Source: Fischerella sp. PCC 9605
GTDB lineage: Bacteria; Cyanobacteriota; Cyanobacteriia; Cyanobacteriales; Nostocaceae
Reading direction: 5' to 3'
DNA: 64,000 bases
Assembly: GCF_000517105.1 (NCBI RefSeq)
Contig: NZ_KI912148.1
Coordinates: 1,110,518-1,174,517, forward strand
Shown: positions 19,326 to 34,058 of the stretch, piece after piece
Layout of the letters: each line of letters begins with the position of its first letter
Position numbering within the stretch: position 1 is the first letter of the stretch
Notes under the pieces: generated by a model
What the model was told of the DNA's origin: nothing
What the model saw: the letters and a program-made list of their open reading frames with translations, nothing else
Databases searched by the model: none
Made by a program: the position numbers and the translations under genes

Positions 19326-19709
19326 ATGGACGACAACCCAATGCTGCTCAAGTCCACAACCCGGCATATCCGTATTTTTGCGGCTGAAATTGACCGGGAT
19401 GGCGAACTAGTTCCCAGCAATCAGGTCTTAACGTTGGATGTTGACCCAGACAACGAATTCAACTGGAATGAAGATGCTCTACAAAAGATTTATCGCAAAT
19501 TTGATGAACTAGTAGAAGCATCTAGTGGCGCAGACCTGACAGATTACAACTTACGCCGCATCGGGTCAGACTTGGAACATTTTCTGCGATCGCTCCTGCA
19601 AAAAGGCGAAATCAGCTATAATCTCTCTGCTCGCGTTACCAACTACAGCATGGGACTTCCCCAGGTAGCATCTGACGATCAAGAGAGTTACGGATTAATG
19701 AAATCATGA
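19326..19709 (+). CDS. ndhM: NAD(P)H-quinone oxidoreductase subunit M
   Basis: A 127-residue peripheral subunit of the thylakoid NDH-1 complex, which drives cyclic electron flow and respiration in cyanobacteria. It is specific to oxygenic phototrophs. Nearly the whole sequence is the conserved family core: [46 protein letters not shown] and [20 protein letters not shown]. The ATG at 19326 gives five residues before the usual MLLKSTTRH. The ATG at 19341 would give the standard N-terminus and is equally possible. Confidence 0.95.
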
Positions 19710-19950: not shown

Positions 19951-21303
19951 ATGCTTTGTCCCTACCTTCCAAAACAACTGGCTGCTTGGCTCTTGCCGCA
20001 GCCTGTTGTCATTTTATTGTTATTTCTCCATCCCCATTGCTTTGCTGCCGAACTAGTAGGACGTGCCGTTTTGAGTGCTGATACCTTTGCCCCTGGCCCA
20101 ACTACAGGTCAATTCAAAAAAACAAATCGCACTGTTCCTTTTGTTAATGCCCAACCTGTTCAAGGCTTTTCTGCTGTGATTGCAGGACCAAAAGCAGGTA
20201 CTTACCTAGTCATTTCAGATAATGGTTTTGGCAGCAAAGCCAATTCACCTGACTACGTGCTGCGTATTTATGCAGTCGAGCCTGATTTTACAACAGGTAA
20301 AGTTTTTCCAGTTAATTTCCAAACTGGAGAAAGACTTGCAAGCTTTAGTCGGCAAAGCTTCTTAGAAATCAACGATCAAAATCGTAAAGTTAACTTCTCC
20401 ATCGTCGCGGAACAGTCTTTTTATCCAGGTAGCACTATCCCAGTTAGCCCAGCAATCAAAAAAAATCGCTTGTTGACAGGGGGAGATTTTGATATTGAAT
20501 CATTCCGACGCGCAACTGACGGTAGCTATTGGTTAGGAGATGAGTTTGGGCCGTTTTTGCTGCACATGGGAAAAAATGGCGAACTCCTGGATTCTCCTAT
20601 TCCTTTACCCAACTTTTTGGGTATCGGGAAGTTAAATTTTGTGAAGTCCCCCGACCATCCAGAATTTACCAATTTACCCAATCAACAAGCAAGAACTACA
20701 GCTGCAAATCTTGGTAGTTCCAAAGGATTTGAAGGCTTGGCACTCAACACTAGTGGTACAAAACTTTATGCGCTTTTAGAAGGATCTTTAAATGATGACT
20801 CTCTCAAGCAACGCCTGTTAATTCATGAATTTGATTTAGCTACTAAACAATATACAGGTAAAGTTTTTTCTTACAAGCTCGAAAATCAGAACCATGCAAT
20901 TGGTGAACTTACAGCTATTAATGATTATGAATACATTGTGATTGAGCGCGATCATCATCAGGGAGATCCAAATAATCCTGCCTTTAAATATCCCGCTAAA
21001 TTTAAACGCCTATATAAAATTAATATTAAACAGGTCGATGCAAATGGTTTTGTTGATAAACAATTATTAGTAGATTTGCTCAAAATTTCTGACATCAACA
21101 AAATTGGTGGTAATAGCACAAGCAAAGGTATATTTACATTTCCCTTTGTGACTATAGAAAGTGTATTACCTGTAGATGCTAAAACGCTGCTTATAATTAA
21201 CGACAATAATTATGCCGATTCTATGGGGCGTTCTCCCAAGCAGGTTGATAATACTGAATTTATTCTTATCCGCTTGGAAAAACCTCTAAATCTTAGTCAA
21301 TAG
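19951..21303 (+). CDS. Secreted esterase-like/phytase-like protein
   Basis: A 450-residue exported protein of the esterase-like activity of phytase family (phytase-like beta-propeller, PF13449 type). A signal peptide is visible in residues 1-32 (hydrophobic VVILLLFLHPHCF, then AAE cleavage region). The mature part shows family stretches: VQGFSAVIAGP, ISDNGFGSKANSPD, DGSYWLGDEFGPFLLH, SKGFEGLALN and LLIINDNNYADSMGR. The activity is probably phosphoester or ester hydrolysis in the periplasm, but the substrate is unknown. It stands as a single gene. Confidence 0.8.
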   Translation: MLCPYLPKQLAAWLLPQPVVILLLFLHPHCFAAELVGRAVLSADTFAPGPTTGQFKKTNRTVPFVNAQPVQGFSAVIAGPKAGTYLVISDNGFGSKANSPDYVLRIYAVEPDFTTGKVFPVNFQTGERLASFSRQSFLEINDQNRKVNFSIVAEQSFYPGSTIPVSPAIKKNRLLTGGDFDIESFRRATDGSYWLGDEFGPFLLHMGKNGELLDSPIPLPNFLGIGKLNFVKSPDHPEFTNLPNQQARTTAANLGSSKGFEGLALNTSGTKLYALLEGSLNDDSLKQRLLIHEFDLATKQYTGKVFSYKLENQNHAIGELTAINDYEYIVIERDHHQGDPNNPAFKYPAKFKRLYKINIKQVDANGFVDKQLLVDLLKISDINKIGGNSTSKGIFTFPFVTIESVLPVDAKTLLIINDNNYADSMGRSPKQVDNTEFILIRLEKPLNLSQ

Positions 21304-22116: not shown

Positions 22117-24483
22117 ATGGAAAATGACGCGGCTACGCTTTATTGCCCAAATGAACTTTGTCAGGCTCCCAACCCCCTTACCCACAATTTCTGCCAGCGA
22201 TGCTCTACACCTTTACCCAAACGCTTCCTCTGGGCGGTGGCAGATGGTCTGAACCTGGGTAATCCGGGACAGATATTAGCCACTCGCTATTTAGTTATAG
22301 ATAAATCTATTATTTTAGATACTAAACCAGGTTTTTTACCTCAAACGCCAGATCCAGAAAAATTACAGGCAATCAGACCTTATTTAAGGCTTATTCCCTA
22401 TCGCTTGCATGTACCGCAGGTATATGGAGTGCTGTCTGTATCTAATGGGGGACAGGCACGAGAAATATTATTGTTAGAAAAACCTCCGATCAAGATCTTA
22501 GATGGAACAGCCTCATTGACTGTGCAGTTGTGTAGCGAATTCACTACCGCTTGGCGTGATGCGACATCAATGCGCCAACTCAATTGGCTGTGGCAAATAG
22601 CACAACTTTGGCAACCCCTGGCTAGTGAAGGTGTGGCCTCTAGCTTACTCGATCCCTATTTATTAAGAGTAGAAGGATCGTTAGTGCGGTTGTTGGAATT
22701 GCATTTTCAGGAAGATTCTCTACCAAGCTTGTCCCAGTTAGGGGAGTTTTGGCAGCAGTTGCTGAGCGGAGCAAAACCAGCAATTGCAGGATTTCTGAGC
22801 GAAACTTGCCGTTGTTTGATTGAAGGAGAGATACAAGCAGCAGAGCAATTAGTGAGAGTTTTAGATAAAGGACTGACAGAATTAGGGCGATCGCAATCTC
22901 CCACCATAACAATAGCTACTAAAAGCGACACCGGGCCCAGTCGCCAGCGCAATGAAGATGCCTGCTATCCACCCAGCGGTAGCTTGGTGAGCAAACCACC
23001 CCACCCCTCAGCTTTGGCGATTGTTTGTGATGGCATCGGCGGACACGAAGGTGGTAATGTCGCATCCAACTTGGCAATTGAAACAATTCAGCAGCAGGTA
23101 CAGGAACTGACTAAAGTTCCTTACGACCACATCGAACCCAATCTACTACTGGAAGACTTGCAACGAGCAGCAGCTGTTGCCAACGATAAAATCAGCCAGC
23201 GCAATGACAGCGAAAGCCGACAAGGACGCCAGCGCATGGGAACAACCTTGGTAATGGCTTTGCCCATAGGTCACGAAATGTACATTGCCCACGTTGGTGA
23301 TAGTCGTGCTTACTGGATTACGCGTCACGGCTGCTACCAAGTTACCCTTGATGATGATGTTGCCTCTCGGGAGGTGCGGCTAGGTTATGCCATCTACCGG
23401 GATGCTGTGCAACAAGGTGCTTCTGGCTCTTTGGTGCAGGCGCTGGGTATGAGTCCGAGTATTTCGTTGCATCCTTCCGCCGAACGCTTCATCCTTGACG
23501 AAGATTGTATTTTTCTACTCTGTTCTGATGGTTTGAGCGACTTTGACCGCGTAGAACAGTATTGGGAAACCGAAATCTTACCAATCCTGAGCAGGAAAGC
23601 GGATGTTGTAAATATTACAAATAGGTTAGTTGAAATTGCGAATACGCAAAATGGACACGACAATGTCACTATTGCCTTAGTCCACTACCAATACAAATAC
23701 TCTGAACCAGAAACAAAGCTAGAAGCAGTCTTACCCGATCTGTCTGATATTCCAACAGCAAATTACCCACTCACAACCTTACAACCCCTGTCAGGAAGTA
23801 GCTACAGCCAAAAAACCCAAGTAATGCCGGATACAGCCCCTAGCAAGCGATCGCCAGTACCGCTACAGTTGGTTATCCTTTTGGCGTTAGTAGTGGGTGG
23901 TGGTTTCTTGGGATTTTTGTGGGGGCGTCAGGGAGGAATCTTAGGAAAAAAAGTTCCCCTTCCCCCTCCTATATCAAGTAACCCGATTAGTGCTACTCCA
24001 TCTGTATCGCCAACAACGGGCGATCGCCCTCAGGTGATTCAGACCACAAGTCAACTATTTTTAAGCACAACCACGTCGCCTCCAAAACCAGCAATTGCAC
24101 CTGCTGGTAGTGTTTTGCAAATTATTAATCCGAATCAAGAACCAAAGCCAGAACAAACAAATCCTAAGTCTTGGGTGTATCTGCGGGTATGCTCTGTTGC
24201 AGGGAGTGTGGCTTCATCCATAGATCCGCCCAACCCCACATCCACTCCCGTAGTTAGCAGGACTATTGTCAAACAGAGGGAAGTATATAGGATACGCTTG
24301 TCTGAATTTCAAAAATCATTGAAGAATATTTCCACACCCCCACCAGAGGTTTCCAATCAATGTCAGCTGAGTAATGCTGCTAGCACCCCCGTAGAGGAAT
24401 CGGTAGAGTCTGTTCCTTCACCTGCGCCCTTGGATCGGTCGTCACCTCCACAAGGCACTAATTCCACTGATAGCACTGAATAG
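22117..24483 (+). CDS. Membrane-anchored PP2C Ser/Thr phosphatase with zinc ribbon (PrpJ-like)
   Basis: A 788-residue protein. Residues 10-29 form a zinc ribbon (Cys10, 15, 26, 29). A middle region (about 40-250) has no clear domain. The PP2C phosphatase domain spans about 268-525, with SDTGPSRQRNEDA, VCDGIGGHEGG (metal-binding Asp about 303), AHVGDSRAYW, LCSDGLSDF and GHDNVTIALV. One transmembrane helix lies near 586-605, followed by a Pro/Ser/Thr-rich tail that should face the periplasm. Metal-dependent phosphatases of this kind remove phosphate from Ser/Thr. The architecture and neighbourhood fit PrpJ, a plasma-membrane PP2C needed for heterocyst maturation in Anabaena. Orthology is inferred. 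A CHAT-FHA gene follows 135 bases downstream. Confidence 0.88.
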   Translation: MENDAATLYCPNELCQAPNPLTHNFCQRCSTPLPKRFLWAVADGLNLGNPGQILATRYLVIDKSIILDTKPGFLPQTPDPEKLQAIRPYLRLIPYRLHVPQVYGVLSVSNGGQAREILLLEKPPIKILDGTASLTVQLCSEFTTAWRDATSMRQLNWLWQIAQLWQPLASEGVASSLLDPYLLRVEGSLVRLLELHFQEDSLPSLSQLGEFWQQLLSGAKPAIAGFLSETCRCLIEGEIQAAEQLVRVLDKGLTELGRSQSPTITIATKSDTGPSRQRNEDACYPPSGSLVSKPPHPSALAIVCDGIGGHEGGNVASNLAIETIQQQVQELTKVPYDHIEPNLLLEDLQRAAAVANDKISQRNDSESRQGRQRMGTTLVMALPIGHEMYIAHVGDSRAYWITRHGCYQVTLDDDVASREVRLGYAIYRDAVQQGASGSLVQALGMSPSISLHPSAERFILDEDCIFLLCSDGLSDFDRVEQYWETEILPILSRKADVVNITNRLVEIANTQNGHDNVTIALVHYQYKYSEPETKLEAVLPDLSDIPTANYPLTTLQPLSGSSYSQKTQVMPDTAPSKRSPVPLQLVILLALVVGGGFLGFLWGRQGGILGKKVPLPPPISSNPISATPSVSPTTGDRPQVIQTTSQLFLSTTTSPPKPAIAPAGSVLQIINPNQEPKPEQTNPKSWVYLRVCSVAGSVASSIDPPNPTSTPVVSRTIVKQREVYRIRLSEFQKSLKNISTPPPEVSNQCQLSNAASTPVEESVESVPSPAPLDRSSPPQGTNSTDSTE

Positions 24484-24552
24484 TCAAAAACTCGATAAAC
24501 TAGTATAAACCTGAAATAATACTGGTAAAAGCCAGAACAAAAAATTCAAGAA

Positions 24553-24570
24553 AGGCAAAAACTTTTGCCT
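24553..24570. terminator. Possible hairpin between the PP2C and CHAT-FHA genes
   Basis: AGGCAAAA and TTTTGCCT form an 8-bp stem with a two-base loop, followed by TATTTATAA. The T-run is weak, so it could be a terminator, an attenuator or an RNA-processing hairpin. Confidence 0.35.
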
Positions 24571-24618
24571 ATTTATAACTGCTGTTATTTAATATTTTGA
24601 TTTGACGTTATTTATGTA

Positions 24619-26196
24619 ATGACTCCATCCTTAAACTTGGCGATTACCCGTCTCGTCAAAGCTGGTCCTGATAATTTCGCTATTTGCGTTTTTGATGCTC
24701 CCTATCCCGGTGGTCGTGTTATTCATGATTGCGTCTGGTCTGTGGGGTTGACCCAAGCTTGGAGAGAATGGCAGCAAATGTTTGCTCCTGACACTCGCAT
24801 AGATATTTCCCCAGCGACAACGTTTCAAAGTCCAAACCCACTCCCGAATGAGTTGCTTCCACCGGCTTCCGGTCAGATGACCAATTATACTAGTCGGCTG
24901 ATGCAATACCTGGGAATTAGTTTGTGGCGCTGGCTATTTGACGGCCCAATTCTAAATAGTCTTGAAGGCAGCCGTGCATTTGCTATGGCTCGGAATACAC
25001 GTCTACGCTTTCGATTAGAAATTCGCGATCCTAATTTGATCGCCCTGCCTTGGGAAATTATGCAGCGCGAACCAGGTCAGTCGGCAATATCGCTGTCCCA
25101 AAACATTCTATTTAGTCGTACGACTAGTGACGTTGAACCCCTGCCATCTTTGCGAACCGATCAAGCTTTAAATATCTTGCTAGTTTTGGGAGCAAATGAG
25201 AATCTCCAGTTGGATCAAGAAAGAACTGCGATCTTGGAACAAACCCTTGCCGATGGCTCTATTATGGGCAGCAATGCCCAAGGATATGCGCCTTGCATCG
25301 TAAATACACTTTTACAGCCAACCCCGCAGAAGTTAATTCAAGAGCTAGAAACGCGAACTTACAACATCTTCTTTTATGCCGGTCACGGATTGCGAGGGCC
25401 GGACGGAGGGTATTTACTCTTACAACCTGATATGCGTCTTAATGGCATGGAACTGGCACAAGTTTTAACCCGTGTAGGTGTAAAACTGGCAGTTTTCAAT
25501 GCCTGTTGGGGAGCGCAACCTGCTGCTGTGAACGGTCAAGCCATACCTTGCAGTAGTCTAGCAGAAGTGCTGATCCGGAATGGTGTGCCTGCGGTTTTAG
25601 GAATGCGGGATGAAATCGCCCATGAGGAAAGCCTTTCCTTTATTCATACCTTTGTTCAAGGTTTGCGAAAACGACTGCCCATCGATCACGCCGTGGCAGA
25701 AGCAAGACAACACCTGTTGACAGTATATAAATTCAATCAACCAGCTTGGACACTACCGGTTCTGTACCAACATCCACAATTTGAAGGCGAATTAATTAGG
25801 AGTTACGACGAGGGAATCACAGAACTACCAGAAACCTCCATACCTGGTATTGCTTCCCTGCTTCCTACTGCCTGCTTAAAGTCGGATGGTATCACTTATA
25901 CACTAGAAACTGGTGTCACTCGCATTGGTCGGACGGCAGACAATCATATTGTCATTCAAGAACCAACAGTTTCTAAGCGCCATGCTGAAATCTTGTGTCG
26001 CAATACTTTCAGCGGTCCCACTCCTGTGCGAACTTACTACCTAAGAGAAAACTCTACTTACGGTACAACTTGGATTTTGCGTCCTCAGGGTTGGCAGCAA
26101 ATCCATCGCCAGGAGGTACTCCTAGAACCAGGAATGCAGTTAAAGTTTGGTAGCATGAGAAGTCACTCTTGGGAGTTTATGATTGAAGATTCCTAG
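24619..26196 (+). CDS. CHAT (caspase-like) protease with C-terminal FHA domain
   Basis: A 525-residue fusion. Residues about 150-390 are a CHAT domain, the caspase-HetF-associated peptidase fold. The catalytic dyad is visible: His256 in FYAGHGLRG and Cys296 in FNACWGAQ. Residues about 425-520 are a forkhead-associated domain (RIGRTADNHIVI, then PTVSKRHAEI), which binds phosphothreonine. The N-terminal 150 residues are not assigned. The likely job is a cysteine protease recruited to, or switched by, a Thr-phosphorylated partner. It follows a PP2C phosphatase on the same strand and precedes an unknown gene, so the three may form a unit. HetF, a heterocyst regulator, shares the CHAT fold. Confidence 0.88.
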   Translation: MTPSLNLAITRLVKAGPDNFAICVFDAPYPGGRVIHDCVWSVGLTQAWREWQQMFAPDTRIDISPATTFQSPNPLPNELLPPASGQMTNYTSRLMQYLGISLWRWLFDGPILNSLEGSRAFAMARNTRLRFRLEIRDPNLIALPWEIMQREPGQSAISLSQNILFSRTTSDVEPLPSLRTDQALNILLVLGANENLQLDQERTAILEQTLADGSIMGSNAQGYAPCIVNTLLQPTPQKLIQELETRTYNIFFYAGHGLRGPDGGYLLLQPDMRLNGMELAQVLTRVGVKLAVFNACWGAQPAAVNGQAIPCSSLAEVLIRNGVPAVLGMRDEIAHEESLSFIHTFVQGLRKRLPIDHAVAEARQHLLTVYKFNQPAWTLPVLYQHPQFEGELIRSYDEGITELPETSIPGIASLLPTACLKSDGITYTLETGVTRIGRTADNHIVIQEPTVSKRHAEILCRNTFSGPTPVRTYYLRENSTYGTTWILRPQGWQQIHRQEVLLEPGMQLKFGSMRSHSWEFMIEDS

Positions 26197-26574
26197 TACA
26201 CGTCGGCAGCTATAGGAGTCCGATCTGATTTGTGAAAATAGACTTTGAGTAAACTAAGCGCACCAGGCGCAGAGAGATTTTCACAACTGATTTAGGATCG
26301 CTATATGCTAAAGGTAGGAGGGGCAGTCCAGCAAGAGGCAAAAGTAAAAAAGAACATTCTACATCTAAACTTTTCTCCCTCTCTCCCCTAATCCCCACTC
26401 CCAAAGGGAGCGAGGGGTGTCGAGTTCCCCCTCTTCTAAGAACGGTGATTTCTGTTGCAGTTATTAGCAAAAAACCTACAGATAAACTTAGCAAAATTAT
26501 ATTTTGCGTGCGGAAATTAGAAACTAGCTGCTGTAGCTGTAAATACAACAAATTGATTAATCGGGAGGCGACAC
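26197..26574. other. Intergenic region with G-rich/C-rich hairpin repeat
   Basis: A CCCTCTCTCCCCTAATCCCC / GGGAGCGAGGGG hairpin repeat lies near 26383-26430. A reverse-strand open frame of 113 codons runs through it but reads as repeat-encoded, so I do not call it. GGGAGG at 26562-26567 is a good ribosome-binding site for the next gene. Confidence 0.5.
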
Positions 26575-27249
26575 ATGGCTAAGCACATTCAAGGTTCAGA
26601 CCATTTCCAAACTTTACCTTCTCAAATGGAACTCGAATTTTTAGAAGCACTGCTGCAACCAGAGGATGGTACTTATCCTTGGAACCCAGCAGATGAACAC
26701 TCTGAAGAATATTTTCTCCAACTCGAACAGCAGTTCTTACTTGCAGATGCGCTGGAAGATGATTTGACCACGCGATCGCAAGCTTTTTACAACGAAATAG
26801 AGACGCTATGGGTTTCTAATTCCAAGCACTACAATTGTAATACAAACTATAATCTCGTAGCTAAACTTCAAGAAAGTTTACAAACAAGTTTGGCTACTCG
26901 TGTACCGCAAGATTGGTTGAAGGCGATCGCCACTAAAGCTGCTGATGTTTTTGTTGCCAAACACACCAAAGCTGCTGATGTTTTTGCCGATCAACAATTA
27001 ATGGCAAAATGGCTAGTGGAGTGCGTTCAAGCTTTACTACCCGGTTTGGGAACAGATGTTTGGTTGGTCTTAGCTCGTCCCTATGCCTACGCAATGCGGG
27101 GTAGCGAACCACAAAATGGAGAAACCATACTCAATCAAGTTGGCGAACAAGAATGGACGAATTTATCTGAAATCGAACAGGCAAGAGCTAGTTTGGCGAT
27201 CGCTTACTACGCTTTGCGGAAACTGGATAGCTTTGAAGGTGAAGCCTAA
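26575..27249 (+). CDS. Unknown protein in the PP2C/CHAT-FHA cluster
   Basis: A 224-residue soluble protein that I do not recognise. It has no signal peptide or membrane helix, is acidic, and is probably mostly helical. A strong ribosome-binding site (GGGAGG, seven bases before the ATG) supports it. Residues about 121-137 carry an in-frame 33-bp duplication that yields KAADVF twice. It lies downstream of the CHAT-FHA gene on the same strand and is convergent with the FHA-PrsW gene, so a role with one of these, for example as substrate or adaptor, is possible but unproven. Confidence 0.7.
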   Translation: MAKHIQGSDHFQTLPSQMELEFLEALLQPEDGTYPWNPADEHSEEYFLQLEQQFLLADALEDDLTTRSQAFYNEIETLWVSNSKHYNCNTNYNLVAKLQESLQTSLATRVPQDWLKAIATKAADVFVAKHTKAADVFADQQLMAKWLVECVQALLPGLGTDVWLVLARPYAYAMRGSEPQNGETILNQVGEQEWTNLSEIEQARASLAIAYYALRKLDSFEGEA

Positions 27250-27466
27250 ACTCAAATTTTTATTTTCTGGTTTGATCCAATTCCAATTCTTCTGGTGGCA
27301 AGTAGCTTTAGGTTGCGAGTGACGCTTGGATTGCAAGTCTTTTGAAGATTTTAGCTTAGGGTATAAGTCTGCCACTGTAAACAAAAGGTTAAGCGATCGC
27401 AAAACGAGCGTCATCTATCTGAAGACAGAAAAATTTGATTAATTCCTAAATCTTAATTTATTTTGC

Positions 27467-28843
27467 TTATTTAGGATCGAGAAAGCGGGTAGCGAAATTA
27501 TGCTCTCGTGTAGGTGACAATGCGCGTGCCTTCAGAATTGCAGCCATTAAGAAAGCATAAGATAATACACCTACAACCACTAATAACAAGCCGTTAAGAG
27601 TTCCTGTGGCATTCCATAAAGCGTGGAGTCCGGCAGAAGTAAGATAGCCAATCAGCAGAATCTGCCAGCTTTTTCTGGGCTTGAGAACAGCCAACCCGAT
27701 AAAATAGCCCAGGTAGCCACTGTAAGCCATGTGTCCAGCTACAGAACCTAAAATACGGGGAATTAACAGTTGCAATCCTGCTAGTTGACCAGCACCATCC
27801 CCTGACTGTATTGAGACATTTTGTGTAATTTGCGGTACATACTGCCCCAATGTTTCCAATAGAGTAAAGCCTACAGCAGAAGCAGTTCCCAGAAGAATGC
27901 CATCTAGAGGTTCCCAGACACCGATACGTTCTCGCCACGGTGAGCGCAGTCCCCTAGAAACCGTGTACGATAACAGTAATGGCAATGCTTTCAGTAATTC
28001 CTCCATCAAACCAGCACCAAAAAAGTACCGGATCAGTAGCTCTGTGAAGGTGATAGTTTCTTGATCTGAGGGTAAGCTACCAGGCAAGACGTTGCGAAAG
28101 AAGAAAATAAAAAAATCTAATAGGGGACTTAGTAGGATTAACATCGTTGTCAATCCTGAAGACATTAACACCCACCAAGGCTTACGCTTTCCACACAATT
28201 GATAAATAAAGTAGTAGGCAGCGGACGCTATATAAGTCCCCACAATCACTTGATTAGCTTGCGGATCGCCTACTGTGGCAAACATCAGGACTACAAAAAC
28301 GACCGTAAGTACACCTGGTATGAGATAAGCTTTGCGAGTTAAATCTTTACCAGTCGAAATAATCGGAAACAGTTGCGTGAAGCTAACCGAAGAATCTGGT
28401 ACTGTTGGTGTTTGGTAGCCTCCCGCTGGTGGGAGTGATGTAGCTTCGGCGATGGATGCAATTACAGTAGATTGGTGGTTGAATTCGTACTCAAACAGCA
28501 ATTCCGGACCATCATAACCGAGAGTAATGCGATCGCCCGGCATCAATTGCTGACAACCCTGCAAGCGTTGTCCATTTAAATAAGTACCATTAGCACTATT
28601 CAAATCGCAAATTACCCAGCTAGATTCGCTATCTGGAGAAGTAGGAAGAGGACGAACCACCGCATGACGACGAGATACCATGCGATACATCATGGCATCC
28701 AAGACTATTTGACAGCTAGGGTCGCGTCCAATTACTGCTTCTTTACTGGGGAACAGTGAGTAACGAAATTCCGACCCGTAAGCTGCTTCTTTACCAGACA
28801 CTAGCCGCAGAAATGCATTTCGTCTTGCGTATTTGCCTGTCAT
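27467..28843 (-). CDS. FHA domain fused to a PrsW-family intramembrane protease
   Basis: A 458-residue fusion. Residues about 20-120 form an FHA phosphothreonine-binding domain (AVIGRDPSCQIVL, SRRHAVV, NSANGTYLNGQRL). Residues about 175-450 form a multi-helix PrsW/CAAX-like membrane protease with its conserved polar residues: Glu281-Glu282 (GLMEELLK), Glu in TLLETLGQ, His371 (VAGHMAYSG) and His407 (AGLHALWNATG). PrsW in Bacillus cleaves an anti-sigma factor at the membrane. Here the FHA domain suggests that a phosphorylated protein is bound in the cytoplasm and cleaved or released. It is convergent with the unknown gene of the PP2C/CHAT cluster. Confidence 0.88.
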   Translation of the reverse strand: MTGKYARRNAFLRLVSGKEAAYGSEFRYSLFPSKEAVIGRDPSCQIVLDAMMYRMVSRRHAVVRPLPTSPDSESSWVICDLNSANGTYLNGQRLQGCQQLMPGDRITLGYDGPELLFEYEFNHQSTVIASIAEATSLPPAGGYQTPTVPDSSVSFTQLFPIISTGKDLTRKAYLIPGVLTVVFVVLMFATVGDPQANQVIVGTYIASAAYYFIYQLCGKRKPWWVLMSSGLTTMLILLSPLLDFFIFFFRNVLPGSLPSDQETITFTELLIRYFFGAGLMEELLKALPLLLSYTVSRGLRSPWRERIGVWEPLDGILLGTASAVGFTLLETLGQYVPQITQNVSIQSGDGAGQLAGLQLLIPRILGSVAGHMAYSGYLGYFIGLAVLKPRKSWQILLIGYLTSAGLHALWNATGTLNGLLLVVVGVLSYAFLMAAILKARALSPTREHNFATRFLDPK

Positions 28844-29294: not shown

Positions 29295-29897
29295 CTAACT
29301 GACTGTAGCCATCTCGGGATGCTCAATCTTCGTGCCGAGTACTTTTAGGAATTCCGCCAGCCAACGAGGATGGGCAGGCCAAGCTGGTGCGGTTACTAAA
29401 TTGCCATCAACTATTGCCTCATCCACTGGAATATCTACGTAAGTACCGCCTGCACGGCGCACATCTGGCCCGCAGGCAGGGTAAGCAGTACAACTCTTTC
29501 CTGTGAGTACATCTGCGGCTGCCAACAATTGCAAACCATGACAAATGGCAGCGATGGGCTTGTTTGCTTGGGCAAAGTGACGAGTCATTTCTAGCACTTT
29601 CTGATTCAGACGTATATATTCTGGTGCGCGGCCTCCAGGGATGACTAGAGCATCGTAAGTATCAGGGTTTACTTCATCGAAGGTGGCATTTACCGTGAAA
29701 TTGTGACCTGGTTTTTCACTATAAGTTTGGTCTCCTTCAAAATCGTGAACGGCAGTTCGCACCTTGTCGCCTGCTTTTTTGTCAGGGCAAGCTGCGTGAA
29801 CAGTGTGTCCTACCATTTGCAGCGCTTGGAAGGGAACCATGACCTCATAATCTTCTACATAGTCCCCAACGAGCATAAGAATTTTCTTTGCAGCCAT
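29295..29897 (-). CDS. DJ-1/PfpI family protein
   Basis: A 200-residue protein of the DJ-1/PfpI superfamily, whose members act as glyoxalases, deglycases, chaperones or proteases. The nucleophile elbow is [10 protein letters not shown] with Cys119 and His120. The conserved Glu is probably in the N-terminal [11 protein letters not shown], and [12 protein letters not shown] is present. The length matches single-domain PfpI-like proteins. The exact activity cannot be set from sequence. It is a single gene upstream of a repeat region. Confidence 0.85.
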
Positions 29898-30002
29898 GTT
29901 TTAATATCCTCACTTTGATCGTAAAAAAAGGAATTAGCTAACATCACTTATATTATCTATGTGTCTTAGTGTCTTAGAGGTTATTTATAAAGTAAATATT
30001 AA

Positions 30003-30290
30003 GTAGGGGAGCCAGTGCGGTGGTGAGACAGCGCGGTCTTGGGGTTTCCCCCCATGTAGACGCCCGCAGGGCGGCTTCGGTGCAGGGTGCGACTGCCGTG
30101 CATGGTTCCCCGGCATAAAGGAGCCACTGCGTTGCGGGTGTACCAAGCGTTGTAGCACGTGGCGTCACCTGGCGTTGTGTTACGGCTATGTAAGGATTTG
30201 AGCATCCTTTGAGAGTTGGAATTAGCCACAGGGCACCACTGGCGTGGCGGTGCGTTACGCGCTGCTTTAACGCACCCTACAATTTAAGGT
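30003..30290. repeat. GC-rich dispersed repeat region
   Basis: The sequence shares blocks with 10230-10275 (CAGCGCGGTCTTGGGG followed by TTTCCCCC) and contains several small palindromes and a GCGTTACGC/AACGCACCCTAC relative of the 6880-6914 palindrome. Open frames on the reverse strand here read as repeat-derived sequence. Confidence 0.6.
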
Positions 30291-30324
30291 TTACTTTATA
30301 AATCATCTCTTAATGTTCCTGATT

Positions 30325-30777
30325 TTATTGCAGATTAAATTCCTTCAAAGCCGGGATAAAGTTTTTATTTTCATGCCCAGGACGACTAAGTTTAATCAGG
30401 GCAAAACGCTGCAAGGGAGTGATATTTGACCAGTATTCAGTAGTGATAGTAACGCCTACTTCTTGAGCTTTTTCATAAACACTACTTGGTACAGTACTAG
30501 CATCCATCCATGCGGGATGAGCCTCAACAGGCAATTCAGCGGCGGGTGTACCCGTGCGTTGTAAAATCAATTCTTGGATATACTTGCGGTAAGCCTGAAT
30601 TTCAGATTCTGTAGTGCAAGGTAATTCAACTAAGTTTTGACGCTCTAATTGAGTCATGTGGTTCCAATCTGATAATTTCAGCTTAATGCCACAAGTATCG
30701 AGTTTGCAACGTACCTGCATGGGAATGCAACGCAGGGAATTAACAAAATCCGCCTCAAATTGAAAGAATTCTGACAT
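30325..30777 (-). CDS. narM: Nitrate reductase-associated protein NarM
   Basis: A 150-residue protein of the nitrate-reductase-associated family (PF09655 type). In cyanobacteria NarM is required to form active nitrate reductase and interacts with NarB. It is thought to act in NarB maturation. Typical segments are FQFEADFVNSLRCIPM, RCKLDTCGIKL, LVELPCTTESEIQAYR, and the C-terminal ITPLQRFALIKLSRPGHE. It lies on the same strand as narB but 1 kb further on, behind a PsiE-like gene and a narB terminator, so it probably has its own promoter. Confidence 0.92.
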   Translation of the reverse strand: MSEFFQFEADFVNSLRCIPMQVRCKLDTCGIKLKLSDWNHMTQLERQNLVELPCTTESEIQAYRKYIQELILQRTGTPAAELPVEAHPAWMDASTVPSSVYEKAQEVGVTITTEYWSNITPLQRFALIKLSRPGHENKNFIPALKEFNLQ

Positions 30778-30864
30778 AACCTTGAGTAAATATTGAACTC
30801 ATAAAACCCAATAATCAACCAATAATTAACTATTAACAAACAACAAACAACCAATAAGTATTAA

Positions 30865-31317
30865 CTAATGTTTGGCGTTGGTGGTACGAATAATCCAATA
30901 ACTTATTGAAAGAGCAAGTAGAGCTATTCCCAAACCAATAATATCAATGCCCGAGACTTTGTCTAAATCTAGAATAATAATTTTACGCGCTACAGCAATT
31001 AAGGAAGTTACAATCACTAATTCTACTTGTAAAACATGTTTTTTGAGATAACCTGTGATATTCTCCAAGATTTCCAAAGCAATCAAAACATTTAAAAATA
31101 AGCCAAAAATTTTAAATAATGTTGTATTAAATTTAGCGTATGGAGTGCTAAATAATTCTTTATACAGAAAAATACCCAAATCAAGTATCGCTACAAAAAT
31201 CACCACCAACATCAAAAGAGAAAGAATTTTCGAGACTATCACCTCTATGTTTTCAACTAGGTGCATAAATTTTTCATCTTTGCTGGCTTCCCGAATTCGC
31301 TGGAATAGTTTCCTCAT
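30865..31317 (-). CDS. PsiE-family membrane protein
   Basis: A 150-residue protein with about four transmembrane helices (residues 28-52, 70-86, 98-112, 120-142), matching the phosphate-starvation-inducible PsiE family of unknown function. The N-terminus is charged and cytoplasmic. It sits between narB and narM on the same strand. In Anabaena a small gene of unknown function also separates narB from narM, but I cannot say that the two are orthologous. Confidence 0.75.
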   Translation of the reverse strand: MRKLFQRIREASKDEKFMHLVENIEVIVSKILSLLMLVVIFVAILDLGIFLYKELFSTPYAKFNTTLFKIFGLFLNVLIALEILENITGYLKKHVLQVELVIVTSLIAVARKIIILDLDKVSGIDIIGLGIALLALSISYWIIRTTNAKH

Positions 31318-31522
31318 CGGCTACACTTTCTGCTAGACAATTGGTGATAGCAACTACATAACTTGGTTGTGATTATAAATCAAAAAGGGTGTACTAAAAA
31401 ATGTAGGGCAAAGTGATTAGGTAACAATAAATTGAGATAACTGGACAATACACAAAATTTGTGCATTAGTAGGTTATACCATTGCTTTACTAACCCGCAC
31501 CGCTTTTTTCAGTCAGACTCAA

Positions 31523-31627
31523 TGCTAGTACTTTGCTACACAAAGTATGCTGGGTTTGTAGTAAGGGCTAAAGCCCTCACTACGAACCTCACATCACCCA
31601 ACAAAGTTGATGTGGTTGAGTACTAGC
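31523..31627. repeat. Inverted-repeat element with central palindrome
   Basis: Outer arms GCTAGTACTT (31523-31532) and GAGTACTAGC (near 31618-31627) enclose a near-perfect central palindrome GTAGTAAGGGCTAAAGCCCT (31558 onward, to 31583). The whole stretch could fold as one long hairpin, as small non-autonomous elements do. Confidence 0.6.
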
Positions 31628-31710
31628 TTCCCACATCAAACGCATCTCTACCTACCAGATAACCTAGCAAGCTTGGATGCTGCTCCACAGCAAATCAATT
31701 CTTAAATTTA

Positions 31711-31754
31711 AAAATTAAAACTTGTTATGGATAAATTTTTATCCATGACAAGTT
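31711..31754 (-). terminator. Terminator downstream of narB
   Basis: Arms 31739-31754 and 31719-31734 (AACTTGTTATGGATAA against TTATCCATGACAAGTT, one mismatch) form a 16-bp stem. On the reverse strand it is followed by the T-rich run TTTTAATTTTT. It lies about 58 bases after the narB stop. Confidence 0.75.
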
Positions 31755-31811
31755 TATAGTTAATAAACTCAAAAATACGTTTATTTGACAGAGTACTATT
31801 CAGAGAGTGTT

Positions 31812-34058
31812 TTAACTCCCCCTTAAAACGGTATGGGAAGCTGGTAAATAATCCTTCACTGTTAACTCTACAGTAACTGGTACTAACTGCACTGCACAAG
31901 CTTTTAATTCCGGTTGCAGTGAGTCGGGGCAAAATTCTGGGTGGGTAAGGGCGTTGGCTTCAGCGTTATCTGCCCACAGTGCGCCCCAATGCATGGGGAC
32001 AAACACCGTACCAGGTGCGATCGCCTTTGTAATTTTCGTCGCAAATCTAGCTTTGCCTCGGCGCGATCGCACTTCCACTAACTGGCGATCGGTAATTCCC
32101 AACCCAGCAGCATCGCGGGGATGAATCTCAATAAAAGGTTCGGGGTGCATCTGGCGAGTTTTTTCAATGCGACCAGTGCGCGTCTGGGTGTGCCAATGTC
32201 CGTAAAGTCGCCCAGTTGTCAGCACAAAGGGATAATTAGGATCTGGTGGTTCTGCCAGTCCCCGCGAGTGATAGGCTGCAAACCGGGCACGTCCATCAGG
32301 GGTATGAAAGCGCAAATCGGTGTATAGCCTTTTAGATGATGGGGTGGTGAGACTTTTGTGATGGGGTGAAGTCTTCTCCCCATCCCCCCATCTCCCCATC
32401 TCTTCGTCGGGGTGCGGCCATTGAGTAGGGCCTTGTGAACGCAATTGTTCATGACTTAACCCTGTCATATCGCAAGGGCGATCGCGAGTCAGTTTGACAA
32501 ACTCTGCATAAACTTCGGCGGAGTTAGCAAAGGCAAACTCTCCTACAAAACCTAACCGACGCCCAACTTCGGCAAAGATTTCCCAATCTGGTTTAGCTTC
32601 TCCTGGTGGTCGGCGAAATGCTGGACACAGCGTCACCATTCGTTCAGAATTGGTCATGACGCCAGTTTTTTCACTCCACTGGGCTGCTGGTAGCAGGACG
32701 TGAGCATAAGCAGCTGTTTCTGTCGGGTAATAAGCGTCTTGGTAGATAGTAAAGGGCGATCGCATCAACGCTGCTTTTGTTCGCTCCAAGTCCGGCATAC
32801 TCACCGCCGGATTAGTAGCAGCAATCCACAGCAAGCCCACAGTGCCATCTTCCAACCCAGTAATCATATCCCAAGCCGTCAGACCAGGATTGGGCGAAAT
32901 CTGCCCTCGCTTCAGACCCCAAACATCTTCTACTTCAGCGCGGTGTTGGGGATTTTTCACCAAGCGATAGCCAGGTAATAAGTGCGCCAAACCTCCGGCT
33001 TCTCTTCCTCCCATTGCGTTTGGCTGACCTGTGAGCGAAAAAGGCCCTGCCCCTAGCTTGCCTATTTGTCCGGTCATCAGGTGCAGGTTAATAATAGTTC
33101 TGACCTTCGCTGTACCTTCTGAGGATTGATTCACACCCATTGACCACAAGGACAGTACCCGTTGCGATTGTCCCCAGTACCTAGCTGCTGTTTCTAAATC
33201 TTTAATATCGATTCCACATTGATGAGCCACTACTTCTGGAGAATAGTGCCGAATCACCTCGGCGTACGCGGGGAAGTTACTCGTGCATTCGTCAATAAAC
33301 CCAGTTTCAATGTAGCCCCAACGCATCAACAAGTGAGCAATGCCATTCAATAAGTCGATATCTGTACCGGGACGAATCGCTAAATGCAAGTCGGCTGCTT
33401 CTGCTGTGGGTGTTCGACGGGGATCGACCACAATCATTTTCATCTTGCGGTTCTTTTTGTGATGTTTCTCCAATCGGTTGAAAACGATGGGGTGACATTC
33501 CGCCGTATTGGTGCCAATTAAAAACGCACAATCAGTTAACTCTAAGTCTTCATAGCAGCAAGGAGGGCCATCTGAGCCAAAGCTTTGGATGTACCCAGCT
33601 ACAGCACTAGACATGCATAAGCGAGAGTTAGCATCAAAGTTATTGCTGCCCAGACATCCTTTCAAAAGTTTTTGGGCTATGTAGTAATCTTCGGTTTGAA
33701 ATTGACCGGAACCATACATGCATATAGCTTCTGGGCCCTGAGTGAAACGTACGGTTTGAATCCGTTTGACGATAACATCAAAAGCTTCATCCCAACTAAC
33801 ACGCCGGAACTCCCGATCCAAGGAGTCTCGCACCATCGGATAATGCAGTCTGTTTTTATCTAAAGACTCGGCGATCGTTGCACCTTTGACGCAAACCATA
33901 CCTTGACTGGATGGATGGGCTTTGTCGCCCCGCACCCGCCAAATCGGGTTGCCTTGGCTATCTCGATGAGTTGCTTTGCCTGGTTGCGCTGGTGGCGAGA
34001 CTTCTAATCCACAGCCCACACCACAGTAAGGACAGAGAGTTTTGGTAATTTCAGTCAT
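31812..34058 (-). CDS. narB: Ferredoxin-dependent assimilatory nitrate reductase NarB
   Basis: A 748-residue molybdopterin enzyme that reduces nitrate to nitrite with electrons from ferredoxin. The N-terminal 4Fe-4S ligands are CPYCGVGC (Cys9, 12, 16) plus GMVCVKG. The probable molybdenum-coordinating Cys is in [14 protein letters not shown]. Molybdopterin-binding stretches such as [20 protein letters not shown] follow, and the C-terminal domain begins near [13 protein letters not shown]. Residues about 552-574 are a low-complexity [15 protein letters not shown] segment encoded by a hairpin repeat and absent from the family consensus I know. It is the last gene of the nirA operon here, 765 bases after nrtP. 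Confidence 0.97.
32338..32404. repeat. Hairpin repeat inserted in frame in narB
   Basis: GATGGGGTGG...GTGATGGGG faces CCCCATCCCCCCATCTCCCC. It is the same repeat family as 45135-45182, but inside the coding sequence. The reading frame is kept. Confidence 0.8.

Follow-up and report, generated by a model that had tools for sequence, protein, structure and literature searches.

Do a membrane phosphatase, two proteases and a protein of no recognised family, encoded side by side, act as one phosphorylation-controlled switch? The locus that raises this question lies in the cyanobacterium Fischerella sp. PCC 9605, in a 64,000-nucleotide stretch (contig NZ_KI912148.1, positions 1,110,518 to 1,174,517) that is called the window here. 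A preliminary description, made from the letters alone, had read the four genes as a single phospho-switch in which a PP2C phosphatase controls a CHAT-FHA protease and an FHA-PrsW protease through their FHA domains. We found that CHAT-FHA and the fourth protein, which we call U, form a tight unit and that, over greater distance, only these two behave as one; the phosphatase and the membrane protease are looser companions, and a single four-gene circuit is unproven. Judging from sequence, we hold it an even call that CHAT-FHA and U pair up as a HetF-type protease and its dedicated client, possibly gated by phosphorylation.

22117 to 24483, plus strand: membrane PP2C, 788 residues (open reading frame list, Pfam and ortholog alignment)
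24619 to 26196, plus strand: CHAT-FHA protease, 525 residues, with CHAT at about residues 92-398 and FHA at 434-511 (open reading frame list and Pfam)
26575 to 27249, plus strand: U, 224 residues, predicted to be all helical, the partner co-inherited with CHAT-FHA
27467 to 28843, minus strand: FHA-PrsW intramembrane protease, 458 residues, convergent with U (Pfam and alignment)

Much of the preliminary description held. Its four genes and their domains agree with the open reading frame list and with Pfam, whose models exceed their cut-offs in the respective proteins (PP2C_2 and PP2C; CHAT and FHA; PrsW-protease and FHA). The catalytic residues of all three enzymes are intact, as it had said, and hold across the aligned orthologs, and it was right that the locus has no kinase: neither the frame list nor the Pfam scan gave one in the four-gene stretch, and none of the 50 Pkinase places over the cut-off in this genome falls within the window (0). 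The PADLOC anti-phage defence models gave no family for any of the four proteins (0 for 4/4) at an expectation value (E) of up to 0.1.

CHAT-FHA and U are inherited together

Across 386 genomes of the cyanobacterial phylum we found U in 89, CHAT-FHA in 87 and PrsW-FHA in 80. This sample overlaps with a set of 100 relatives, made up of 60 genomes of the window's family (its own included) and 40 from other families of the order. CHAT-FHA and U occur together in 86 of the 386 genomes, 3 have only U, 1 has only CHAT-FHA and 296 have neither. Of the co-occurrence suggested as a check for four genes, this part stood, with 4 discordant genomes; that of PrsW is moderate, and PP2C is matched in all 100 relatives.

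The association extends well beyond close neighbours. Of the 89 U-bearing genomes, 46 lie outside the window's family, and 43 genomes outside it have both genes: they lie within 5 kb of each other in 24 and at least 267 kb apart on the same contig in 5, and the remaining 14 pairs are on different contigs, where linkage is not judgeable in drafts. The two are adjacent and co-oriented in 59/59 family genomes having both; in the 40 genomes of other families, both occur in 25 and are adjacent in 18.

They are also lost together. CHAT-FHA and U are absent from one genome (G042), where PP2C and PrsW stand 70 bp apart, and in another (G043) CHAT-FHA has six in-frame stops and U is frameshifted beside an intact PrsW gene. 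A third (G082) has no CHAT-FHA and a U remnant with stops; in a fourth (G076), U is open and what is left of CHAT-FHA next to it is a weak match of 53 residues (E 9e-5). Presence and absence are concordant among the listed members of two families, f30 and, except for the draft genome G300, f8. Since U is inherited together with CHAT-FHA, it is likely a target or regulator of this protease.

CHAT-FHA is related to HetF

The CHAT domain (PF12770) scores 76 bits against a cut-off of 24, and its catalytic dyad is kept in every aligned ortholog (the alignments, window included, hold 98 CHAT-FHA, 91 PrsW-FHA and 88 PP2C sequences).

25384 to 25386, plus strand: codon of CHAT His256 (ortholog alignment, 98/98)
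25504 to 25506, plus strand: codon of CHAT Cys296 (ortholog alignment, 98/98)

In NCBIfam, the only strong match of the CHAT domain is the HetF model NF045509 (E 2.8e-41). The score of 141.7 bits, against a cut-off of 1200 and with only residues 92-395 aligned, places CHAT-FHA outside the HetF equivalog; the HetF of the same genome scores 1394.7 bits. That genome has 34 CHAT places, and among the 29 other CHAT proteins compared with a CHAT-FHA profile, HetF scores 198 bits and the next protein 62. In a small tree, HetF is nearest to the CHAT-FHA group, and the split that sets them apart from the other proteins has a support of 0.865; the order inside the group is poorly supported.

HetF (NF045509; alr3546 in Anabaena PCC 7120) is a CHAT protease that acts in cell division and in commitment to the heterocyst fate, and it shares the His/Cys dyad with CHAT-FHA. 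It is longer (an 836-residue open frame in this genome against 525 residues) and has transmembrane and TPR parts, as drawn in a figure legend of PMC8406250, whereas CHAT-FHA has no hydrophobic segment and, in the Pfam scan, no TPR model, with an FHA domain present instead. CHAT-FHA thus appears to be a soluble paralog of HetF with intact catalytic residues, in which an FHA domain is present and the transmembrane and TPR parts are absent.

FHA domains bind phosphothreonine through a conserved Arg, Ser and Asn (of NGT) in their binding loops. In the FHA domain of CHAT-FHA, R438 (98/98) and S452 (96/98) are kept, and the Asn is replaced by Tyr or Phe in 96/98. Since the usual Asn is missing, this domain may be a non-standard phosphothreonine reader. 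Of the two readers first proposed, only the one on PrsW is canonical.

Another CHAT protein, all2170, is mutated in a phage-resistant Nostoc 7120 strain that carries two mutations and resembles hetF mutants, according to PMC10811720. Of the genes treated in that paper, only alr4494 and all1058 are classed as core or soft core. Because all2170 is not core and CHAT-FHA is in 59/60 family genomes (one decayed), all2170 is probably a different protein and not the ortholog, although this is not proven.

Protein U is a candidate substrate or regulator

No Pfam or NCBIfam model matches U over its cut-off, and neither PADLOC nor the PDB sequences gave a match. Its AlphaFold model is all helical (mean predicted local distance difference test, pLDDT, 71); Foldseek against the PDB gave nothing at E 0.001 or better, and the best VIA match (lambda Q antiterminator, Z 7.5) lies within that tool's stated helical background and was not used. 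The alignment has three conserved blocks, YPWNP, ARPxAYAMR and WxxLSEIEQA.

27073 to 27099, plus strand: ARPYAYAMR motif of U (residues 167-175), which is damaged in the U genes of three genomes lacking CHAT-FHA

In these three orphans, for which absence of CHAT-FHA was rechecked at E 0.001, the sequence of the middle block is ARPFASATR, ARPIVFDLR and AGPLAEGGD, respectively, and the outer blocks persist (YPWN positions 4/4, WLSE positions 3-4 of 4). At least five of six motif key residues are present in 60/64 unnamed and 78/80 named U sequences with CHAT-FHA, compared to 0/3 orphans. The 64 include G043, whose CHAT-FHA is decayed, and omit the G082 remnant, which lacks the region. This contrast (Fisher 7e-4 against the 64 and 1.6e-4 against all 144) was drawn post hoc, with n=3, and points to the ARPxAYAMR block as a putative surface of U needed by CHAT-FHA. 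Since Arg175 is kept in 2/3 orphans as well as in 63/64 U sequences with CHAT-FHA, cleavage after this residue would be a guess.

Compared with the 29 further sequences in the first alignment, the U of the window carries an insertion of 11 residues in which KAADVF is repeated (window positions 26935-27000, U residues about 121-142); Tandem Repeats Finder gave nothing there at score 30.

HetF is reported to cleave PatU3, a negative regulator (review PMC12288457), and U could be cut by CHAT-FHA in the same manner. A profile search of this genome gave no second U copy or relative at E up to 10, so homology of U and PatU3 is not supported, and the PatU3 sequence itself was not located. Only the arrangement is analogous: PatU3 is the reported client of HetF and U the proposed client of a HetF-type protease. 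The patU3 gene is placed in the hetZ cluster (PMC12288457), whereas the U gene usually stands beside its protease gene.

If U instead assisted, activated or inhibited CHAT-FHA, as a chaperone, an antitoxin or a subunit would, this would explain the near-perfect co-occurrence and joint loss as well as the helical model, and we regard this as possible, though below an even chance. Open U genes without CHAT-FHA, and a CHAT-FHA without detected U, speak against such a regulator; because each occurs alone, viability does not strictly require the two to be present together. The present data do not separate substrate from regulator.

The FHA-PrsW protease is moderately associated with CHAT-FHA

The PrsW-protease domain (PF13367) scores 128.9 bits against a cut-off of 23.5. 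Residues E281, E282, K285, F326, E330 and H407 are kept in 91/91 orthologs and H371 and N411 in 90/91; we take the first five to be the motifs named EExxK and FxxxE. The adjoined FHA domain is canonical, with R40, S57, R58, H60, N85, G86 and T87 each in 90/91 (one gap). The PrsW equivalog (NF033739) shares the PF13367 family and both motifs with this protein, which differs in its N-terminal FHA domain and reaches 21.7 bits against the equivalog's cut-off of 225. An openly available paper that mentions both PrsW and FHA showed no FHA-PrsW fusion in the passages covered. The genome encodes a second FHA-PrsW protein with 60% identity (L240, G000:C12:152749-154107).

In the 386 genomes, PrsW-FHA and CHAT-FHA occur together in 67, CHAT-FHA without PrsW-FHA in 20 and PrsW-FHA alone in 13; for U, the corresponding counts are 69, 20 and 11. 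Hence the association of PrsW-FHA with CHAT-FHA is moderate.

The membrane PP2C is at least partly an older neighbour of ndhM

PP2C scores 38.1 bits with PF00481 and 43.4 bits with PF13672, both over the cut-off, and its metal-binding and catalytic residues D281, D305 and D395 are kept in 88/88 orthologs and D471 and D515 in 87/88. Zinc-ribbon Cys residues (C10, C15, C26 and C29) stand at the N-terminus, the catalytic domain spans about residues 263-526, and a hydrophobic segment follows at 583-601. Such a segment is found after the catalytic domain in 87/88 orthologs, the 88th being cut short there, which agrees with the membrane location first proposed; of these 87, 83 have two Cys in the tail and no more. 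PP2C looks like a receptor-type phosphatase, with an inferred topology. It scores 258 bits with the PRK14559 serine/threonine phosphatase model (NF011149), which requires 374.

The catalytic fold is shared with tPphA, PstP and Stp1 (VIA Z 18.4-20.6 over 205-229 residues), to which PP2C adds the zinc-ribbon Cys, about 230 residues of unrecognised fold before the catalytic domain, the hydrophobic segment and the tail. PrpJ (all1731) is reported to be a plasma-membrane PP2C involved in heterocyst maturation; like this PP2C it is membrane-located and from a heterocyst former. The second PrpJ gene of Anabaena PCC 7120 (PrpJ2) is presumably all2470. HltA was rejected as a counterpart, as it is of a different family, a GAF-SpoIIE-type phosphatase (PMC9430166).

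A pseudokinase suggested by eye in the PP2C N-terminus was dropped, since a profile comparison with 10 kinases of this genome gave a probability of 0.44%. In Pfam at E up to 10, four of five N-termini gave only zinc-binding models below the cut-off (DZR, Zn_Ribbon_1, DNA_ligase_ZBD and Rpr2) and the fifth gave nothing; the AlphaFold model is poor here (pLDDT mostly 26-43 for residues 34-139). Of 10 Ser/Thr kinases of this genome that were viewed, three (L231, L235 and L236) have by eye an N-terminal zinc-ribbon-like stretch resembling that of PP2C (CxNxxCxxPxNP...FCQxC), as if a docking head were common to both.

PP2C is matched in 100/100 relatives. Of 13 genomes that lack CHAT-FHA and were examined for this, 4 have it adjoining ndhM (G071, G083, G086 and G098). 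Since this pairing exists without CHAT-FHA, the position of PP2C is at least partly that of an older neighbourhood, and its location proves little.

19326 to 19709, plus strand: ndhM, for subunit M of NDH-1, long a neighbour of PP2C; context outside the system

Gene order and its controls

The gene set is kept well above chance expectation, subject to the controls below. All four genes are contiguous in 50/60 family genomes and in 5/40 from the order's other families, and draft contig breaks account for part of the remainder. For the neighbourhood count, CHAT places had to score above the HetF level, at about 200 bits, and PrsW places had to reach about 300 bits. Of 94 genomes with any CHAT match 85 were thus kept, and of 97 with any PrsW match 82; U and PP2C were counted by the best place per matching genome, so that the decayed genes of G043 and the remnant of G082 count as present. 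In one genome of another order (G107, locus L314), the whole order ndhM-PP2C-CHAT-FHA-U-PrsW is found.

For a flank control we used 62 loci longer than 16.5 kb out of the named loci (the best 80 of 195), requiring a half-length match. All 62 are from Nostocales, and they match ndhM in 60, Nitr_red_assoc in 54, PsiE in 53 and a narB-like gene, named by eye, in 49. Because the flanks are nearly as conserved as the locus, local gene order inside the family is poor evidence of function; the preliminary description would have been refuted had the genes rarely been neighbours elsewhere, which is not the case, but the family count carries little weight. In 20 more distant loci, CHAT is matched in 17 (beside U), PrsW in 15, PP2C in 10 (11 with G070), ndhM in 9 and the downstream flanks in 0-1. 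These 20, of which 18 are from other families of the order, were picked mostly for U or an instructive loss and are thus non-random; they are 7 to 19.5 kb long, some ended by contig breaks, and the half-length rule misses PP2C in L133 (G070), where the search of relatives finds it.

Contiguity, the whole order in another order of cyanobacteria, the canonical FHA domain of PrsW and the membrane segment of PP2C would all fit the switch first proposed, with PP2C controlling both proteases. We consider it unlikely, given that PP2C is matched in every relative and stands by ndhM without CHAT-FHA, that PrsW-FHA and CHAT-FHA each occur without the other, and that CHAT-FHA and U were lost or decayed in G042 and G043 while PrsW stayed open. 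One phospho-switch over two proteases is therefore not demonstrated. Passive synteny, that is, unrelated housekeeping regulators held near ndhM and the narB-like gene by slow rearrangement, fits the family flanks and is still possible for PP2C, but it is very improbable overall and already contradicted for CHAT-FHA and U, whose co-occurrence when far apart, joint loss and adjacency in distant loci without downstream flanks it leaves unexplained.

Other neighbours were noted. A phytase-like esterase gene (PF13449, window positions 19951-21303) lies between ndhM and PP2C; because it is matched in only 7/62 named loci, it may be a recent neighbour. Beside PrsW-FHA and on its strand (29295-34058) are genes for PfpI/DJ-1 (matched in 41/62 named loci), Nitr_red_assoc, PsiE and, by eye, the narB-like protein. 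Five intergenic stretches gave one NtcA-like motif, in the CHAT-U gap, and no TCCGGA (0); promoter-like sites (10 compared to 13.0 in shuffles) and terminator-like sites (5 compared to 7.5) show no excess. None of these motifs and sites was used as evidence.

Discussion

We propose that U is a substrate cut by CHAT-FHA or its regulatory subunit, and that the ARPxAYAMR helix is what CHAT-FHA recognises in it. The FHA domain would direct CHAT-FHA to a target that one of the many Ser/Thr kinases in the cell has phosphorylated, and its ligand would gate or position the protease. The neighbouring membrane PP2C could erase the phospho-mark, and FHA-PrsW could be an accessory membrane protease that reads marks of this kind as well. 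The weakest part of this proposal is a shared pathway for PP2C and PrsW.

Several observations weigh against the protease-client pair. Where the CHAT and U matches are adjacent (77 cases), they lie 125-591 bp apart, so a single CHAT-U transcript is not assured. Three of the 386 genomes keep an open U without CHAT-FHA, with G194 and G272 among such cases, and in the draft G300, which has CHAT-FHA, U was not detected. Fisher values for the co-occurrence ignore shared ancestry and are inflated by relatedness; hence the concordance in f8 and f30 and the joint losses are the better argument. The motif was chosen after the three orphans had been seen, six U sequences with CHAT-FHA score four or less (G276, G053, G065, G022, L215 and L218), and Arg175 persists in two of the three orphans. 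The altered FHA domain of CHAT-FHA, the unsupported homology of U to PatU3, the conserved family flanks and the pairing of PP2C with ndhM without CHAT-FHA weigh against it too.

A wider version, in which U is a dedicated substrate cut at or recognised via ARPxAYAMR and the pair is a second, phospho-gated proteolytic switch like HetF and PatU over a large part of the Cyanobacteria, with a receptor-like membrane PP2C to reset it and a link to FHA-PrsW in the membrane, seems to us quite unlikely. Since 46/89 U genomes lie outside the window's family, the distribution does not imply a heterocyst role, and a general one, for example in division or stress, would fit better than one in heterocysts only. 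We found no description of the CHAT-FHA/U pair, or of CHAT with FHA in cyanobacteria, in the openly available literature; most subscription papers were beyond reach.

Among bacterial proteases that resemble caspases, HetF has a substrate reported from development. If a soluble paralog of it combines a domain of the phosphopeptide-reading type with a partner inherited alongside, regulated proteolysis by CHAT enzymes would reach many cyanobacteria, whether or not of the heterocystous family, and the pair would tie Ser/Thr phosphorylation, for which this genome has its 50 kinase places, to proteolysis. U is a concrete candidate substrate of CHAT-FHA, and the pairing offers a hypothesis of function for an unannotated family present in 89 of the 386 genomes.

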